Assembly (NCBI GenBank): GCA_040882285.1
Contig: JBBEBQ010000006.1
Location: 62,001 to 126,000 of the forward strand
Direction: 5' to 3'
Length of the DNA stretch: 64,000 bases
Source of the DNA: Gemmatimonadaceae bacterium
GTDB taxonomy: Bacteria; Gemmatimonadota; Gemmatimonadetes; Gemmatimonadales; Gemmatimonadaceae
Shown: positions 2,371-62,221 of the stretch, in pieces
Layout of the letters: every line of letters begins with the position of its first letter
How positions within the stretch are numbered: the first letter of the stretch is position 1
The notes under the pieces: model-generated
Told to the model about the DNA's origin: nothing
Database searches by the model: none
Seen by the model: only the letters and a program-made list of their open reading frames with translations
Made by a program: the position numbers and the translations under genes

Positions 2371-3918
2371 GTGACGTGTAACGTGAACAGATTTGATCGA
2401 CAACTGATTGCGCGGAACGCGCTTCTCGCGGGGCTTGTTGTGGCGGGCATTGGTGCCTTGTCTCCCGCGGGCGCGCAGGTCGCTTCCGGCCAACGCTACG
2501 ACCGCCTCGCGATCCGCAACGCCACGATCGTCAACGGCAACGGCACACCCGCTTCCGGCCCCGCCGACATAGTGATCCAGGGGAACACGATCGCCGAGAT
2601 AGTCTGGCTCGATCCCGTCGCCGTGCGCGAGGGCAGGGCCCGCCGCCCCGCGGCGGACGCCGAGATCGACGCGACCGGAAAGTTCGTGCTGCCGGGATTG
2701 ATCAACGCCCACGGGCACGTGCAGGAGGAGCGCGGCGGAATCCCCCAGCCGCTCGACTACGAGCTCAAGCTCTGGCTCGCGTCGGGCATCACCACGGTGA
2801 GAGACGTGGGGTCGCCCACGGAGCGGACTCTCGCGTTGCGAGAGCAGAGCCGCCAGAACCAGATCGCCGCGCCCCGGCTGTACGTGTACGCGCAGTTCGG
2901 CCGCCGCCCGACGCCCACGAATCCGGCGCTGGCCCGCGCGCGCGTGCGCGAGCTCAAGGCGCTCGGCGTGGACGGCATCAAGACGACCGGAATCGACCGC
3001 GACATACTTGCCGCGCTGCTCGATGAAGCGCGCAAGGTCGGGCTCAAAGTTGCGCACCACGCCGGGGTCGAGGAGAGCAATGCGTGGGACGACATCCGCG
3101 GCGGCACCAGCAGCATCGAGCACTGGTACGGCGTCCCCGACGCCGCGATCCCCGGCGGGGTGCAGAACTTTCCGGCCGACTACGATTACCGCGACGAGGT
3201 CGATCGCTTCCGCTACGCGGGCCGCCTCTGGCGCGAGGCGGACTCCACGAGACTGGTAGCGGTGCTCGACTCGATGGTCGCCGCGAAAGTTGCCTGGGTG
3301 CCCACGCTCGTCATCTACGAAGCGAGCAGGGACCTGCAGCGCGCGCAGACGCAGCCGTGGTTCGCCGACTACCTGCACCCGACGCTCGAGCGCTACTTCC
3401 GCCCTGACCCGGCCAACCACGGCTCGTACTTCTTCGGCTGGACCACCACCGACGAGACTTTCTGGAAGGAGAATTACCGCATCTGGATGCGCGCGCTGCG
3501 CGACTTCGAGCGGCGAGGCGGACTCATCGGCGCGGGCGAGGACGCGGGGTTCATCTACCAGATGTACGGCTTCGGCCTGATCCGCGAGCTGGAGCTGCAC
3601 GAGGAAGCGGGCTTCCACCCCATCAAGGTCATTCAGCACGCCACCGGCAACAACGCGCGCATTCTTGGCGAGGAGCACCGGCTCGGGCGGATCCGCGCCG
3701 GCTACCTTGCCGACTTGATCGTCGTGAACGGGAATCCGCTGGCCAACCTCAAGGTGCTGTATCCGACGGGCGTGGAGGAAATTCGGGACGGAAAGGCGAT
3801 CCGAACCGGCGGTATCGAATGGACGATCAAGGATGGAATTCCCTATCACGGCCCCACGTTGTTGCGCGAGGTGGCGGAGATTGTGGCCGCTGCGAGGGCG
3901 GGGGCTGCACGTGACTAG
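2371..3918 (+). CDS. Exported amidohydrolase family protein
   Basis: Metal-dependent hydrolase of the amidohydrolase superfamily (imidazolonepropionase/prolidase-like branch) that probably acts on amide or cyclic substrates outside the cytoplasm. An N-terminal hydrophobic segment at residues 16-35 ending in AGAQ is a signal peptide. The metal-binding H-G-H lies at 114-116, further histidines occur in a VAHHAG motif near 230, and a GAGEDAG motif near 390 carries the late aspartate. The start is GTG; a second in-frame GTG lies 12 nt downstream. The TAG stop falls inside the heptamer array that follows. Together with the next gene it forms a tandem of secreted amidohydrolases. Substrate unknown. 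Confidence 0.8.
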   Translation: MTCNVNRFDRQLIARNALLAGLVVAGIGALSPAGAQVASGQRYDRLAIRNATIVNGNGTPASGPADIVIQGNTIAEIVWLDPVAVREGRARRPAADAEIDATGKFVLPGLINAHGHVQEERGGIPQPLDYELKLWLASGITTVRDVGSPTERTLALREQSRQNQIAAPRLYVYAQFGRRPTPTNPALARARVRELKALGVDGIKTTGIDRDILAALLDEARKVGLKVAHHAGVEESNAWDDIRGGTSSIEHWYGVPDAAIPGGVQNFPADYDYRDEVDRFRYAGRLWREADSTRLVAVLDSMVAAKVAWVPTLVIYEASRDLQRAQTQPWFADYLHPTLERYFRPDPANHGSYFFGWTTTDETFWKENYRIWMRALRDFERRGGLIGAGEDAGFIYQMYGFGLIRELELHEEAGFHPIKVIQHATGNNARILGEEHRLGRIRAGYLADLIVVNGNPLANLKVLYPTGVEEIRDGKAIRTGGIEWTIKDGIPYHGPTLLREVAEIVAAARAGAARD

Positions 3919-3965
3919 TCACAAGTCACTAGTCACTAGTCACCAATGAATGGTCACCAGTCAAT
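3911..3965. repeat. Heptamer array, AGTCACN family (8 units)
   Basis: Read in sevens from 3917: AGTCACA, AGTCACT, AGTCACT, AGTCACC, AATGAAT, GGTCACC, AGTCAAT, preceded by GTGACT. The GTGACTAGTCAC at the left edge is a perfect palindrome. The array supplies the TAG stop of the upstream gene (3916-3918) and runs into the start region of the downstream gene. Confidence 0.85.
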
Positions 3966-6088: not shown

Positions 6089-6123
6089 GGTGACTAGTGA
6101 CTAGTGACTGGTGACTAGTAAGG
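6089..6123. repeat. Heptamer array, AGTGACT family (5 units)
   Basis: GGTGACT, AGTGACT, AGTGACT, GGTGACT, AGTAAGG read in sevens, immediately after the stop of the amidohydrolase gene. The heptamer is the reverse complement of the AGTCACT unit found at 3911-3965. Confidence 0.85.
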
Positions 6124-21319: not shown

Positions 21320-21375
21320 GCTGCGTGCTGCGTGCTGCGTGCTGCGTGCTGCGTGCTGCGTGCTGCGTGCTGCGT
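21320..21375. repeat. Heptamer array, exactly eight GCTGCGT units
   Basis: Fifty-six bases of perfect GCTGCGT tandem repeat between the third bactofilin gene and ggt, starting 4 bp after the bactofilin stop. The same heptamer occurs on one strand or the other at 29427-29468, 34063-34097 and 34688-34708. It lies 46 bp upstream of the ggt ATG. Confidence 0.95.
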
Positions 21376-21421
21376 GCTAACTTCATCGCGCAAGGCAGCG
21401 CCTCTCAATTTGGACCGACCA

Positions 21422-25591: not shown

Positions 25592-25795
25592 GCGGATTGT
25601 GGATTAAGGACTTTGCGGCCTCAGGACTAACCGCAATCGACGATCGACGATTAAATGAGGACCGCGGAGAGAAGCGTCTCGCCGCGTCGTCCCCCCCTGA
25701 GTTCCGCTCATCCTCAGCCCTCACTTAATCGCCGATCCGCAATGGCCGTTGGTCCTGAGGCCGCAAAGTCCTCAATCCGAAGTCGCAAGCAATGG
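25592..25795. repeat. About 200-bp inverted repeat filling the gap after the ggt relic
   Basis: The outer arms share GGACTTTGCGGCCTCAGGAC (left arm near 25611-25630, right arm near 25755-25775 on the other strand) and extend into GGATT/AATCC sequences. A nested inner pair reads CGACGATTAAATGAGGAC on the left and its near complement (CCTCACTTAATCGCCG) on the right. Parts read in sevens (ATCGACG, ATCGACG, ATTAAAT). The 360-bp gap 25456-25817 contains only this element and the ggt relic. Confidence 0.8.
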
Positions 25796-29399: not shown

Positions 29400-29426
29400 T
29401 CTACTCTCGGCTCGATGCCGCGAGGA

Positions 29427-29468
29427 CGCAGCACGCAGCACGCAGCACGCAGCACGTAGCACGCAGCG
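29427..29468. repeat. Heptamer array, CGCAGCA (6 units), with conserved flank
   Basis: Six units CGCAGCA (one CGTAGCA, last CGCAGCG), the complement of the GCTGCGT array at 21320. On the right it runs into GCGCTTTTCCC and on the left into CTCGATGCCGCGAG. These flanks recur at 34098-34108 and 34672-34710, marking a composite element. Confidence 0.9.
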
Positions 29469-34055: not shown

Positions 34056-34185
34056 GAAAAGCGCTGCGTGCTGCGTGCTGCGTGCTGCGTGCTGCGTCCT
34101 CGCGGCATCAGGGCGGGCAGAGCCGACGGTGGTGCCTCGCAGGGGAAAAGCAGCTATCAGCTATCAGCTATCAGCAGTCAGTGGA
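34056..34185. repeat. Composite heptamer element, left copy
   Basis: Order: GGAAAAGC, five GCTGCGT units (34063-34097), CTCGCGGCATC, about 25 variable bases, GGTGGTGCCTCGCAGGGGAA, then a second array of CAGCTAT, CAGCTAT, CAGCTAT, CAGCAGT. The same module order appears inverted at 34603-34712. It lies between the exonuclease-helicase start and the small membrane-protein gene. Confidence 0.85.
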
Positions 34186-34602: not shown

Positions 34603-34712
34603 ACTGCCAACTGATAACTGACGACTCGTTACTGTTTTTCCCCTGCGAGGCACCACCATTGCCTCCCGCGCCTCGATGCCGCGAGCACGCAGCACGCAGC
34701 ACGCAGCGCTTT
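34603..34712. repeat. Composite heptamer element, right (inverted) copy
   Basis: Array ACTGCCA, ACTGATA, ACTGACG, ACTCGTT, ACTGTTT, then TTCCCCTGCGAGGCACCACC, a variable part, GATGCCGCGAG, three CGCAGCA-type units (34688-34708) and CGCTTTT. Its reverse complement follows the module order of the copy at 34056-34185. The two copies face each other across one gene. Confidence 0.85.
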
Positions 34713-46596: not shown

Positions 46597-46649
46597 CGTC
46601 CAGGTGTTCACGCGCACGATGTGTGCAAGGGAAGGGCCACTTGAAGCTC

Positions 46650-46745
46650 TTGGCTGTTGGCTGTTAGCTGTTGGTCTCCGCGACGAAATCTACTGGCTGC
46701 GGTCCGCGGCGCAGTCAAGCCAATAGCCAAGAGCCAATAGCCAAC
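46650..46745. repeat. Inverted pair of heptamer arrays before murA
   Basis: Left array TTGGCTG, TTGGCTG, TTAGCTG, TTGGTCT (46650-46677); right array AGCCAAT, AGCCAAG, AGCCAAT, AGCCAAC (46718-46745). The two are reverse complements and could fold around a 40-nt loop. They fill most of the 46597-46791 gap between divergent genes, so the murA and DUF948 promoters must lie in or near them. Confidence 0.88.
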
Positions 46746-57874: not shown

Positions 57875-58873
57875 ATGCTTCGCGTACTGCACAACACGAA
57901 AATCAATTTTATCCGCCTGTGGCGCGTGTCCACGGCGTTCTCGCTGCTGCTGATCATTCCCGGCCTGATCTGGATCGCGCTCAGCGGGTTCCACTACAGC
58001 ATCGAGTTCACCGGCGGCACGCTCAAGCGGATCCAGTTCACCGATCCGCCGCCGAGCGTGGCGGACGTCCGCGCCGCCATGGCGGAGGGCGGCCTGCCGC
58101 AGGTGGAGATCCAGACCTTCGGTAGTCCGAACGAGCTGATCATGCGGGCGCAGGACCCGAGCACGGTCGCGCAGCAGGACGCCGGCGCCGAAGTCGTCTC
58201 GCGGCAGATTACCGCGGCGCTCGATGCGAAGTTCGGCGCTGACAAATACGAGGTGCTCCTCACCGAAGGGGTCGGGCCGAAGGTGGGTAGCGAGCTCCGG
58301 CGGAACGCCATGATCGCGCTGGCGATCGCGTTCATCACGACTTTGATCTACCTGGCGTGGCGGTTCGAGTGGCGGTTCGGGCTCGCCGCCGTGCTTGCGA
58401 CGGTCCACGACATTCTCGCGACGCTGGCGTTCATGAAGTACATGAACCTCGAGATATCGCTGTTCGTGGTCGGCGCGCTGCTGACCGTGATCGGTTACTC
58501 GCTGAACGACACGGTCGTGGTGTTCGACCGCGTGCGCGAGAACCTGAAGAAGTTCCCGAAGACGGGCCTGTACGACCTGCTCAACCGGTCGGTGAACGAG
58601 ACGCTGCCGCGGACGGTGCTGACCGGATCCACGACGCTGGCCACGCTGCTGTCGCTGCTCATCTTCGGCGGCACCGTGATCCGGCCGTTCGCCTGGGTGC
58701 TGACGTGGGGAATCATCATCGGAACGTTCAGCTCGGTGTACGTGGCCGGGCCGTTGCTCCTGTGGATCAACCACCAGTGGCCGCGGCACGCCGCGGCATC
58801 GGGACGCGCCGACCGCCTGGCCCAGGCCACGCGGCAGACCGAGCGGGAGAAGAGGCCCGCGCCCGCGCGATGA
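57875..58873 (+). CDS. secF: Protein translocase subunit SecF
   Basis: 332 residues, six membrane helices. N-terminal P1-like region with FTGGTLKRIQFTDPP, signature YSLNDTVVVFDRVRENLK near 207, and a NRSVNETLPRTVLTGSTTLATLL helix. A basic C-terminal tail ends in TEREKRPAPAR. It partners SecD. The TGA overlaps the ATG of the DUF4956 gene (ATGA), so the following gene is coupled to the translocase pair. Confidence 0.94.
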   Translation: MLRVLHNTKINFIRLWRVSTAFSLLLIIPGLIWIALSGFHYSIEFTGGTLKRIQFTDPPPSVADVRAAMAEGGLPQVEIQTFGSPNELIMRAQDPSTVAQQDAGAEVVSRQITAALDAKFGADKYEVLLTEGVGPKVGSELRRNAMIALAIAFITTLIYLAWRFEWRFGLAAVLATVHDILATLAFMKYMNLEISLFVVGALLTVIGYSLNDTVVVFDRVRENLKKFPKTGLYDLLNRSVNETLPRTVLTGSTTLATLLSLLIFGGTVIRPFAWVLTWGIIIGTFSSVYVAGPLLLWINHQWPRHAAASGRADRLAQATRQTEREKRPAPAR

Positions 58874-59922
58874 CGACGCCTGTCGGCGCCCACGGCCAGG
58901 CAACAAGCTCTTCGGCGCCGCCGCATTGGAAGCGCATGTGGGGCAACGTGGTGCTCCGCACCATTGTCTATTACGCGCTGCTCGTGGGCGTGGCCGCGCT
59001 CACCTGGGAGTATCTCCCGCCGACCGACGTCGGGGCCGCGGGAGGCGACGGCGCCACGCTGACCGGGAGCGCCGACATCATCGCGCGGATCGCCGATGAT
59101 TCGCTGACGCTGTCGGTGTTCCTCGCGATGGCGACCGCGGTGCTCGTGTCCATCCCGGTCGCGTGGATCTACACACTGACGCGGCAGAAGCGCGGCTTCC
59201 AGCAGTCGGTGGTGCAGATGCTGGTGCTGCTCCCGCCAGTCGTCGCCGGAATCGTGATGCTGGTCAAGCACAGCCTCGCGCTCGCCTTCAGCCTCGCGGG
59301 CGCGGCCGCGGCCGTCCGCTTCCGCAACACGCTCGACGACAGCAAGGACGCGGCATACGCCTTTCTCGCGATCGGGATCGGCATCGCCGCCGCGGTCGAG
59401 CTGCCGGTGGCGCTGGTGCTCTCGGTCGTGTTCAACGCGGTGATTCTGGGACTGTGGTACACCGACTTCGGCCGCGTGCCGGCCGCGCTGGAAGGGAAGG
59501 AAGCGCAGCGGAAGCTCGAGCGGGCGCTCGCCGTCGCGAGCCGGACGGGGACGTTCGTGGCGCGGCTCGACAAGGAGCTGTTCGAGCACATGTCGCCCGA
59601 GCAGCTCGAGGCCGCGGCGGACAAGGCGCAGCGCCGGCGCCGGCGCAACGCGCCCGATTTCATGGACGAGAACGTCGAGGCCGAGCGCGACAACCTGCTG
59701 CTGCGGGTCGCGACGTTCGACCCGCCGGCCGCGCGCAAGGCGGTGGAGCCGGTGCTCGACCAGCGGGTGAAGCGCTGGCGCTACGGCGGGCTGGTGCGCG
59801 AGCAGACCGGCGCCACGGTCATCGAGTACATGGTGGATCTCAAGCGGCGCGAGCCGGCGCAGAGCGTGCTCGACGCGCTGCGTGACCTTGGAGCGCACGT
59901 CGTGCGCGCGGAGCTGAAATGA
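58870..59922 (+). CDS. DUF4956 family membrane protein
   Basis: 350 residues: four membrane helices (about 38-56, 86-104, 114-130, 155-185) with the DUF4956 core VRFRNTLDDSKDAAYAFLAIG. A soluble C-terminal domain of about 150 residues contains a basic RRRRRNAPDFMDE loop and a YMVDLKRREPAQSVLDALRDL ferredoxin-like end. DUF4956 proteins often sit next to VTC-type and CotH-type genes, and the next gene may be CotH-like. Function unproven. Coupled to secF by ATGA, and its own TGA overlaps the next ATG. Confidence 0.82.
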   Translation: MTTPVGAHGQATSSSAPPHWKRMWGNVVLRTIVYYALLVGVAALTWEYLPPTDVGAAGGDGATLTGSADIIARIADDSLTLSVFLAMATAVLVSIPVAWIYTLTRQKRGFQQSVVQMLVLLPPVVAGIVMLVKHSLALAFSLAGAAAAVRFRNTLDDSKDAAYAFLAIGIGIAAAVELPVALVLSVVFNAVILGLWYTDFGRVPAALEGKEAQRKLERALAVASRTGTFVARLDKELFEHMSPEQLEAAADKAQRRRRRNAPDFMDENVEAERDNLLLRVATFDPPAARKAVEPVLDQRVKRWRYGGLVREQTGATVIEYMVDLKRREPAQSVLDALRDLGAHVVRAELK

Positions 59923-60971
59923 AAAAAGCTATTGGCTATTGGCTATTGGCTGTTGGCTATGCGGCCGTCGCCGGGGCGCAGGCGCCCGCGGACAGCGCGC
60001 CCAAGCCGTACGAGCTGCAGAAGCTTTTCTCGCACGACAGCGTCCTGCGGCTCACGCTCACCACCAACTTCCGGGCTCTGTCCCGCTCGCGGTCGGGTGC
60101 AGCGAGGTACTACGGCGCGAAGCTGACGTACAGCGACACCGGAGCTTCCCCGATCACGATTCCGCTGCGGGTGCGGGCGCGCGGACTCTGGCGCAGGGTG
60201 AACTGCGAGATGCCGCCGGTGCTGCTCAACTTCTGGACCGACAGCTCGAAGAAGACGCTGTTTGCGCGCCTCGATCGCGGCCGGCTGGTCGTGCACTGCC
60301 GCAACAACGACGCGTTCGAGCAGTACGTGCTCCAGGAATTCCAGCTGTACCGCATATACAACCTGCTGACGCCGTTCAGCCACCGCGCGCGGCTGGCGCA
60401 CGTGACGTACGTGGACAGCGCGTCCGGGAGGCAGACCGCCGCGCGGCACGGGTTCATACTCGAGGACGACGACGACATGGCCGCGCGCAACGGCGGCAAG
60501 CAGATGGAGCTGAAGGGCGCGAAGTCCGGAGACCTCGATCCGTTCACCGACGCGCTGGTGGGAGTGTTCCAGTATCTCATCGGCGGAAGCGACTGGTCGG
60601 TGGCCGGGCTGCACAACATTCAGCTGGTGAGCCAGCCCGAGGGCGTCGTCCGCGCGGTGGCGTACGACTTCGACTGGTCCGGCGCCGTCAACGCGAGCTA
60701 CGCCAAGCCCGATTACCGTTTGCCGATCACGGCCGTCCGGCAGCGCCTGTTCCGCGGCTACTGCGCGCCGCGGGAGCAGTTCACCCGGGTGTTCGCGCTG
60801 TTCAACGAACAGAAGCCGGCGATCTACGCGCTGTACTCCGATCACATCGGCCGGCTCATGAACCCCGATGTCGTACGGCGTACGCTCGCGTACTTCGACG
60901 AATTTTACGAGACGATAAACGATCCCAGGAGGGCGGCCGAGCTCGTCCGGAGCTGCAAGGAGGCGCAGTAA
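59919..60971 (+). CDS. Exported protein, distantly CotH-like, with repeat-encoded signal peptide
   Basis: 350 residues. The signal peptide KKAIGYWLLAVGYAAVAGAQA is largely encoded by the GCTATTG heptamer array at 59928-59962. The mature part has RARGLWRRVNCEMPPVLL (about 87-104), CRNNDAFEQYVLQEFQLYRI and an AYDFDWSGAVN motif, an order that recalls CotH-type kinases (basic RxRG, then a late D-x-D). I do not see a full CotH signature. The ATG overlaps the DUF4956 stop. Unsure between CotH-like kinase and an unnamed family. Confidence 0.65.
   Translation: MKKAIGYWLLAVGYAAVAGAQAPADSAPKPYELQKLFSHDSVLRLTLTTNFRALSRSRSGAARYYGAKLTYSDTGASPITIPLRVRARGLWRRVNCEMPPVLLNFWTDSSKKTLFARLDRGRLVVHCRNNDAFEQYVLQEFQLYRIYNLLTPFSHRARLAHVTYVDSASGRQTAARHGFILEDDDDMAARNGGKQMELKGAKSGDLDPFTDALVGVFQYLIGGSDWSVAGLHNIQLVSQPEGVVRAVAYDFDWSGAVNASYAKPDYRLPITAVRQRLFRGYCAPREQFTRVFALFNEQKPAIYALYSDHIGRLMNPDVVRRTLAYFDEFYETINDPRRAAELVRSCKEAQ
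59928..59962 (+). repeat. Heptamer array inside a signal-peptide coding region (5 units)
   Basis: GCTATTG, GCTATTG, GCTATTG, GCTGTTG, GCTATGC. Three units equal seven codons, so the array encodes alternating IGYWLLAVGY-type residues. Its reverse complement array lies at 61808-61838. Confidence 0.9.
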
Positions 60972-60975
60972 GGGC

Positions 60976-61758
60976 GTGACTGCGGTGGCTTCGTTCATCG
61001 ACAGTCACGCCCACCTCGTCGACCCGGCGTTCGATTCCGACCGGGCAGAGGCGATCGAGCGGGCCCGCCGGACCGGCTGCGAGGGGATCGTCGCGATAGG
61101 CACGTCACCGGCGGATTCCCGCGCGGCCCTCGAGCTCGCGCACGCCAATGCCGGCTTCGTGTACGCGACCGCCGGCCACCATCCACACGAGGCCCCCTCC
61201 TTCGACCCGGCGCGCGACGGCGAGCTGCTGCGCGAGCTGCTCGATCAGGGCGCGGTCGCGGTCGGCGAGTGCGGGTTGGACTACCACTACGATCACTCGC
61301 CGCGGGACGCGCAGCTACGCGCGTTCAGCGCCCAGCTCGCCCTGGCCGCCGAGCTGCGCAAGCCGGCGGTCGTGCACACGCGCGAGGCCGAGTCCGACAT
61401 GGAGGCCATGATCCGCGAGGCCGGCACCTCCGGGGTGATCGGCGTGCTGCACTGCTTCACCGGGCCGGCGCGGCTCGCCGACGCGGCGCTCGCGGCCGGC
61501 TGGTACGTCTCGTTCGCGGGGATCGTGACGTTCAGGAAGTGGGCCGGGGACGATCTCATTCGGGCCGTTCCCGACGATCGCATTCTCGTCGAATCCGACT
61601 CCCCCTACCTTGCCCCCGTCCCGCACCGCGGCAAGCGCAACGAGCCCGCGTACGTCAGCCTGACCCTCGCGAAAGTGGCGGAGGCGCGGGGAGTGCAGGC
61701 GCAAGCGCTCGGTGAGCGCGTAACGACTAACGCGCGCCGCCTATTCGGACTGGACTAG
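60976..61758 (+). CDS. TatD family metal-dependent hydrolase
   Basis: 260-residue TIM-barrel DNase/hydrolase. FIDSHAHLVD (7-16) supplies the first metal histidines; GHHPHEAP near 67, GECGLDYHYDHSP near 97 with the bridging glutamate, HTREAESD near 135, HCFTGPARLA near 159, and VESDSPYLAPVPHRG near 208 complete the site. It probably acts in nucleic acid turnover or repair. GTG start at 60976, 4 bp after the CotH-like gene stop. Confidence 0.92.
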   Translation: MTAVASFIDSHAHLVDPAFDSDRAEAIERARRTGCEGIVAIGTSPADSRAALELAHANAGFVYATAGHHPHEAPSFDPARDGELLRELLDQGAVAVGECGLDYHYDHSPRDAQLRAFSAQLALAAELRKPAVVHTREAESDMEAMIREAGTSGVIGVLHCFTGPARLADAALAAGWYVSFAGIVTFRKWAGDDLIRAVPDDRILVESDSPYLAPVPHRGKRNEPAYVSLTLAKVAEARGVQAQALGERVTTNARRLFGLD

Positions 61759-61807: not shown

Positions 61808-61838
61808 AGCCAATAGCCAATAGCCAATAGCCAACAGC
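61808..61838. repeat. Heptamer array, AGCCAAT (4 units), before ridA
   Basis: AGCCAAT three times, AGCCAAC once, then AGCCC up to the ridA ATG at 61841. It is the reverse complement of the array at 59928 and matches the right arm at 46718. The TTCCCCGTGCGAGG 40 bp upstream resembles a module of the composite element near 34 kb. Confidence 0.9.
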
Positions 61839-61840
61839 CC

Positions 61841-62221
61841 ATGTCCCTCAAAATCATCCAGACGAGCGACGCACCCGCCGCGATCGGCCCGTACTCGCAG
61901 GCCGTGACCGCCGGCGGATTCCTATTCACGGCGGGACAGATCGCGCTCGATCCAAAAAGCGGCCAAGTGATCGACGGCGGCGTCGAGCAGCAGACCGAGC
62001 GAGTGATGACCAACCTCTCGGCGGTCCTGAAGGAGGCGGGCGCCGACTGGAGCAGCGCCGTGAAGACGACCGTGTACCTGCACGACATGGCCGACTTTCC
62101 CGCGATGAACGAGGTGTACGGCCGGCGGCTGGGCGACTCGCGTCCGGCGCGCTCCACGATCCAGGCGGCCGGCCTACCGCGCGGAGTGCTCGTCGAGATC
62201 GACGTAGTCGCCAAGCTGTAG
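61841..62221 (+). CDS. ridA: RidA/YjgF family reactive-intermediate deaminase
   Basis: 126-residue trimeric enzyme that hydrolyses enamine/imine intermediates from PLP enzymes. Motifs: APAAIGPYSQAVTAGGFLFTAGQIALDP (10-37 in pieces), TTVYLHDMADFPAMNEVYG, and SRPARSTIQAAGLPRGVLVEID with the substrate-binding Arg and Glu. The ATG directly follows the heptamer array, so no normal ribosome binding site is evident apart from repeat sequence. Confidence 0.93.
   Translation: MSLKIIQTSDAPAAIGPYSQAVTAGGFLFTAGQIALDPKSGQVIDGGVEQQTERVMTNLSAVLKEAGADWSSAVKTTVYLHDMADFPAMNEVYGRRLGDSRPARSTIQAAGLPRGVLVEIDVVAKL

Follow-up and report, generated by a model that had tools for sequence, protein, structure and literature searches.

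A gene for an exported protein in a Gemmatimonadaceae bacterium carries, directly behind its start codon, a tandem array of the heptamer GCTATTG that codes for the core of its predicted signal peptide. A non-triplet tandem repeat directly after the start codon of an exported protein's gene is reminiscent of phase-variable contingency loci, and a preliminary description had proposed phase-variable export. Is the array an on/off switch, or is it a fixed coding part? The window analysed here, 64,000 nucleotides long, corresponds to contig C6:62001-126000 of a 2.89-Mb genome (G000). The relatives used for comparison were Gemmatimonadaceae MAGs; the other three species of the genus are designated G001, G002 and G003. 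Nucleotide identity over the locus is about 91.5% between G000 and G001, and about 80-82% between G000 and either G002 or G003.

The array and the gene that it opens

A gene for a DUF4956 membrane protein (58870-59922, forward strand; Pfam PF16316, E 1.4e-10), a neighbour kept in relatives, ends in a TGA stop codon (59920-59922, forward strand) that overlaps the ATG of the next gene as ATGA. The latter gene (59919-60971, forward strand), recognized by its open reading frame, coding score and orthologues, encodes a protein of 350 amino acids. Conservation of the ATG(A) overlap with the DUF4956 stop codon in all four species agrees with the start at 59919 assumed earlier. Downstream, a TatD-family DNase gene (60976-61758, forward strand; PF01026, E 1.5e-76) sits between two heptamer arms. 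The second arm, inverted and intergenic (61808-61839, reverse strand), belongs to the GCTRTTG family and lies 1-2 nt ahead of the start codon of a RidA-family gene (61841-62221, forward strand; PF01042, E 9.1e-40). Its placement is typical, with the 5' end of the arm at the start codon of the opposite-strand gene.

Positions 59919-59962 read ATG AAA AAA GCT ATT GGC TAT TGG CTA TTG GCT GTT GGC TAT GC. The perfect array (59928-59951) comprises 3.4 units and, with a GCTGTTG variant, extends to 59960 as 4.7 units with a 92% match. The arm (59928-59960, forward strand) thus consists of GCTATTG x3, GCTGTTG and GCTAT, and codes for A-I-G-Y-W-L-L-A-V-G-Y. The array described at the start of the exported protein is therefore real and is translated after the start codon, occupying codons 4-14 rather than codons 4-15. 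The sequence GCTATTGGCTATTG occurs four times in the window and in none of 100 dinucleotide shuffles, which rules out chance. By period, the window contains nine perfect arrays of period 7, three of period 6 and one of period 9, and none of any other period in the range from 2 to 15.

By sequence, the window protein matched no entry of Pfam, NCBIfam or PDB, so the family hint was taken from homologues and fold. Pfam CotH (PF08757) is matched by three of 30 aligned homologues (best 1.1e-6), the window protein itself being unmatched. The structure was predicted with confidence (pLDDT 88.7), and its top folds are HipA/PI3K-type kinases, weakly matched (TM about 0.35, best E 3e-3). Homologues were found in 35 of the 60 relatives searched, many of them adjoining a DUF4956 gene; orthologue identity is 79-88% within the genus and 34-52% further out. 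From these comparisons, the most apt description of the protein is that of an exported CotH-like protein.

The N terminus of the CotH-like protein reads MKKAIGYWLLAVGYAAVAGAQA..., of which MKKAIGYWLLAVGYAAVAGA (59919-59978, forward strand) is the predicted signal peptide. By inspection it has a K-K n-region, a hydrophobic core and a conserved AxA|Q, in support of the earlier view that the repeat serves as the signal-peptide core. Core hydropathy is 1.9 on the KD scale over 11 residues. Heptamer-coded cores are in general moderate, with KD values of about 1.9-2.4 versus a median of 2.5 for outgroup CotH-like N termini. Signal peptidase would more likely cut after A20, before Q21, as the AxA|Q position is common to the aligned CotH-like orthologues of the four species; cleavage after AGAQA, as suggested previously, would place a proline at +1.

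Abundance, size and placement of the GCTRTTG element

All four genomes of the genus contain three tandem copies of GCTATTG, which are absent from the 175 other genomes of the family that were compared. The pattern GCTRTTGGCTRTTGGC has 289 matches in this genome, which by extrapolation correspond to perhaps 130 separate arms. We classified 93 arms in the stretches read around pattern matches, a sample biased to the sites of the pattern search, using gene calls from a home-made, simple codon-usage caller. The genomes are drafts; the arms, at ~28 bp, are short relative to reads and agree between independent assemblies. Exactly four units were present in 68 of the 93 arms. Most orthologous GCTRTTG arms likewise hold four units, while some differ (6 versus 4).

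Outside called genes lay 88 of the 93 arms, a count that includes the arms of a lipoprotein and a PagL-like gene described below, whose starts the caller missed. Of these 88, 60 had their 5' end no more than 12 nt from a gene boundary, but only three had their 3' end so close. The 60 boundary-adjacent arms comprise 31 behind a same-strand stop codon and 29 ahead of an opposite-strand start codon. An inverted partner within 130 nt, forming a hairpin, accompanied 63 of the 88. Four such dyads of 110-130 nt folded with energies of -47 to -56 kcal/mol; the intergenic dyads are located precisely between stop and start codons and show vertical conservation. The longest arm seen, of 13 units (L045 6204-6294, G000:C5), is spanned by a naive ORF call and is probably intergenic.

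Other heptamer families, of the GCTGCGT, ACTAGTC, GCTGCTA and GCTATCA types, occur in the same window and genome. GCTGCGT/ACGCAGC arrays lie between window genes at 21320-21378, 29426-29467, 34063-34097 and 34684-34707; unlike that of most GCTRTTG arms, their copy number differs between species, with 8.4 versus 3.4 units at 21320. Further heptamer arrays in the window are found at 3914-3963, 6090-6119, 34151-34175, 46646-46674 and 46718-46744 (ACTAGTC, GTGACTA, CAGCTAT, GCTGTTG, AGCCAAT). In an intergenic region of ~1.2 kb elsewhere in the genome (L047 5617-6482, G000:C5), four heptamer families account for five or more arrays, and one of these array sites holds yet another heptamer in G001 (GTGATTA/GTGATTG type). 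A dispersed repeat of ~195 bp (window about 25595-25790), with many copies in both orientations in the three sister genomes at ~70-85% identity, is probably a palindromic REP/MITE-like family.

With regard to a possible MITE nature of the GCTRTTG element, arms had inverted partners in 63 of 88 cases, and the same sites hold different heptamer families in different species. REP/RAYT transposition was set aside, since a profile search for the Y1 transposase (PF01797) gave no match in the four genus genomes, whereas control genomes did match.

Coding arms at four exported proteins

To find coding arms, we looked for arms that continue the frame of an upstream start codon into a well-scoring coding sequence; these were read codon by codon and traced to their orthologues. 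The search yielded four loci, encoding the CotH-like protein, a Peptidase_M23/EnvC-like protein, a solute-binding lipoprotein and a PagL-like protein; all belong to exported families, an observation made on n = 4 genes. The EnvC/M23-like gene, directly behind FtsX, reads MKRCWLLAVGCWLSVGAATAVHAQ and has (GCTGTTG)x4 in all four species. The lipoprotein, with the same architecture in all four species, reads MRGAIGCWLLALGYLGAC in G001, MKRAIGCWLLAVGFLGAC in G002 and MRGAVGCWLLAVGFLGGC in G003, and in three species its arm continues directly into the lipobox LGAC/LGGC. The G000 copy (L187 2012-2150, G000:C10) has 78 nt more than that of G001, consisting of the rest of the dyad, in frame, before the lipobox. 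A nearer in-frame ATG or GTG was not found for it, and its true start is uncertain because the frame reads through the whole dyad. The PagL-like protein reads MKSSCWLLAVGCWLVPAAASA in G000; the arms of its sister species, including G002, are more or less degenerate. At the coding arms, inspection revealed the features of Sec signals: MKK, MRR or MKR starts, a WLLAVG core, and AxA|Q or a lipobox.

Several other candidates were rejected as signal peptides. Most of these ATG-R-array sites (L057, L060, L062-L064, L066-L068 and L071) are 15-42-codon frames behind a stop codon, that is, ordinary intergenic arms. The frame at L069 is implausible, and at L044 and L045/L058 the frame crosses a complete dyad and enters a gene that probably starts further downstream.

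All four genes overlap the upstream gene by 4 nt at their start (ATGA or GTGA), which places each coding arm a few nucleotides behind a stop codon. The CotH arm, for example, begins 5 nt past the TGA of the DUF4956 gene, as intergenic arms do. The coding arms are read in different frames, the offset from the A of the ATG being 9 in the CotH-like and lipoprotein genes and 7 or 10 in the EnvC and PagL genes, and the same peptide results. Three units do make seven codons, as pointed out in the preliminary description; moreover, a stop-free tandem heptamer yields the same cyclic heptapeptide in all three frames, AIGYWLL for GCTATTG and AVGCWLL for GCTGTTG. No forward frame of (GCTRTTG)n contains a stop codon.

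The start and frame of the CotH-like gene are kept in all four species, the total N-terminal length varying by multiples of three. Three species have GCTRTTG-type arrays of similar length at the CotH signal, and G001 has a GCTGCTA-type heptamer, in frame. The G001 arm, GCTGCTAGCTGCTAGCTGCTGGCT, recurs as an identical 24-mer in an intergenic arm of that genome (L160). In G001, the site ahead of RidA and several intergenic sites also carry another heptamer family, and it therefore seems that repeat families have replaced one another in the signal core without loss of frame. Replacement of GCTRTTG by GCTGCTA in the G001 CotH-like gene would be the parsimonious reading.

Outside the genus, the homologues have signal peptides of the ordinary kind, several of them at the same ATGA/GTGA overlap (CotH-like L028 and L034; EnvC L234, L235 and L237), which suggests that the overlap is the older feature and the repeat came later. 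In other genera, period-7 tracts of different sequence were seen near three of 44 EnvC or lipoprotein starts (L240, L242 and L248; GGGGACG, GTGAGAG and CAGTTCG types), a suggestive hint, and only that, of the same habit elsewhere in the order.

Interpretation and relation to known repeats

We consider it probable (about 0.77) that the array belongs, as one arm, to a heptamer hairpin element that is specific to the genus and typically has four units, its arms being placed behind stop codons at gene overlaps and recurrently recruited and selected as signal cores. Arms normally start within ~12 nt of a gene boundary, behind a stop or ahead of an opposite-strand start. At four-base overlaps (ATGA/GTGA), an arm placed past the upstream stop would become approximately codons 3-14 of the downstream gene. 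There it would be acceptable wherever the downstream product requires a hydrophobic signal peptide, because it is stop-free and gives the same hydrophobic heptapeptide in three frames. It would then persist as the core of a Sec or lipoprotein signal, its frame and length maintained by selection. Three steps here are inferred: export as the function, displacement of an older signal core, and a selection filter.

A broader version of this mechanism is tentative, and we would rather bet against it than for it. Here the hairpin arms would be mobile or templated, boundary-targeting, frame-independent signal-peptide cassettes, with lineages swapping families while export is kept. Any hydrophobic, stop-free heptamer would serve as a signal core wherever it landed behind an overlapping start, and the CotH-like gene of the closest relative would exemplify a family swap at one site.

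Among the rival explanations, the one that survives best, improbable as it is, holds that the arm acts mainly as nucleic acid, as an mRNA hairpin or binding site in translational coupling or transcript stability, its coding role being a tolerated by-product. The great stability of the intergenic dyads, their position between stop and start codons and their vertical conservation are all in keeping with such a role. However, an inverted partner is mostly absent at the coding arms (CotH, EnvC, PagL and, in three species, the lipoprotein), so the dyad hairpin cannot form at most of them, and it is the amino-acid pattern and the frame that are kept.

Phase-variable export, in which slipped-strand mispairing would gain or lose a heptamer and so turn the gene off or on, is unlikely on comparative grounds, and we give it only a slim chance. 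The arithmetic of the original proposal is sound: 7 is not a multiple of 3. Translation shows that loss of one unit would truncate the CotH-like protein to 66 amino acids, and gain of one would give a 355-aa wrong-frame product. Unit number does vary at other heptamer sites (the array at 21320 and some GCTRTTG arms), and prokaryotes have an excess of simple repeats close to N termini (Lin and Kussell, as cited in PMC4692102). Nevertheless, the frame-shifting variation that switching predicts was absent where it was sought, all four CotH-like orthologues being in frame and every orthologue of the four loci open. Unlike the arrays of contingency loci, those studied here keep their frame between species and are short, with three to four perfect units broken by G/A variants, and the EnvC array has four units in each of the four species. 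That gene, of a cell-division type, would be an improbable target for random switching, and four units are the normal size of the element everywhere.

The least credible alternative is coincidence or codon-level convergence, in which Leu/Ala/Val-rich codons were duplicated locally and independently of the intergenic arrays: signal cores are simple in composition, and the tracts are rich in CTG and GCT and partly degenerate in G001 (CotH) and in the G002 PagL gene, but the exact heptamer belongs to a family with 289 pattern matches in this genome, GCTATTG x3 is missing from the 175 other family genomes, coding arms lie at the same distance behind a stop as intergenic arms, and the signal regions of the genus show no period but 7 (lag 7 in 11 of 12 loci, lags 4-6 and 8-11 in none of them).

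The reading as a recruited hairpin arm is preferred. Since all the species examined keep its reading frame, the array has the appearance of a fixed piece of coding sequence and not of an on/off switch.

Intergenic heptameric simple repeats are known from Xanthomonas (GGGAATC) and Nostoc (GGGGA(C/T)T) (Rehm et al. 2015, PMC4692102). Like them, the present element prefers four units, is mostly non-coding, forms some inverted pairs and lies in sense just behind stops and in antisense just ahead of starts. Unlike them, GCTRTTG is not G-rich, several lineage-specific families coexist, and arms are translated as conserved signal peptides. Tandems of GCTATTG or GCTGTTG contain GG at most and no GGG, so an explanation of the four units by G-quadruplexes is inapplicable here.

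The TAACTGA direct repeats of Beggiatoaceae, also abundant intergenic heptamers (MacGregor 2015, PMC4679880), resemble GCTRTTG in lying near gene boundaries, with some inside ORFs at protein edges, and in being translatable into a heptapeptide repeat (LSVISYQ in one orientation). They differ in heptamer and phylum, and a signal-peptide role is not reported there, the term being absent from PMC4679880. The YPAL/RU-2 MITE of Yersinia, as reviewed in PMC2229807, is an intergenic hairpin repeat from which the exported protein YPO1552 takes part of its predicted signal peptide (Delihas 2007). According to that review it is a 168-bp element with one putative protein, unlike the 28-bp arm at four established exported families, genus-wide, described here. 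Rickettsia palindromic elements are palindromic repeats in frame within conserved protein genes (PMC2229807). They insert in many kinds of protein, unlike the coding heptamer arms found here, which sit at signal peptides.

A search limited to open-licence papers found no literature on heptamer-coded signal peptides, and only a general study of frameshift genes that paired Gemmatimonadetes with heptamers and tandem repeats. While heptamers between genes and a single signal peptide derived from a MITE were already known, recurrent coding use as a signal core appears to add a new variation.

The preference for four units and the placement at gene boundaries of the Xanthomonas/Nostoc type also occur with a sequence unable to form G-quadruplexes, which argues for another cause. 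For this genus, the four loci offer a concrete comparative case in which non-coding repeat DNA would have become a working protein part several times, and a simple reason for the survival of the repeat at signal peptides.
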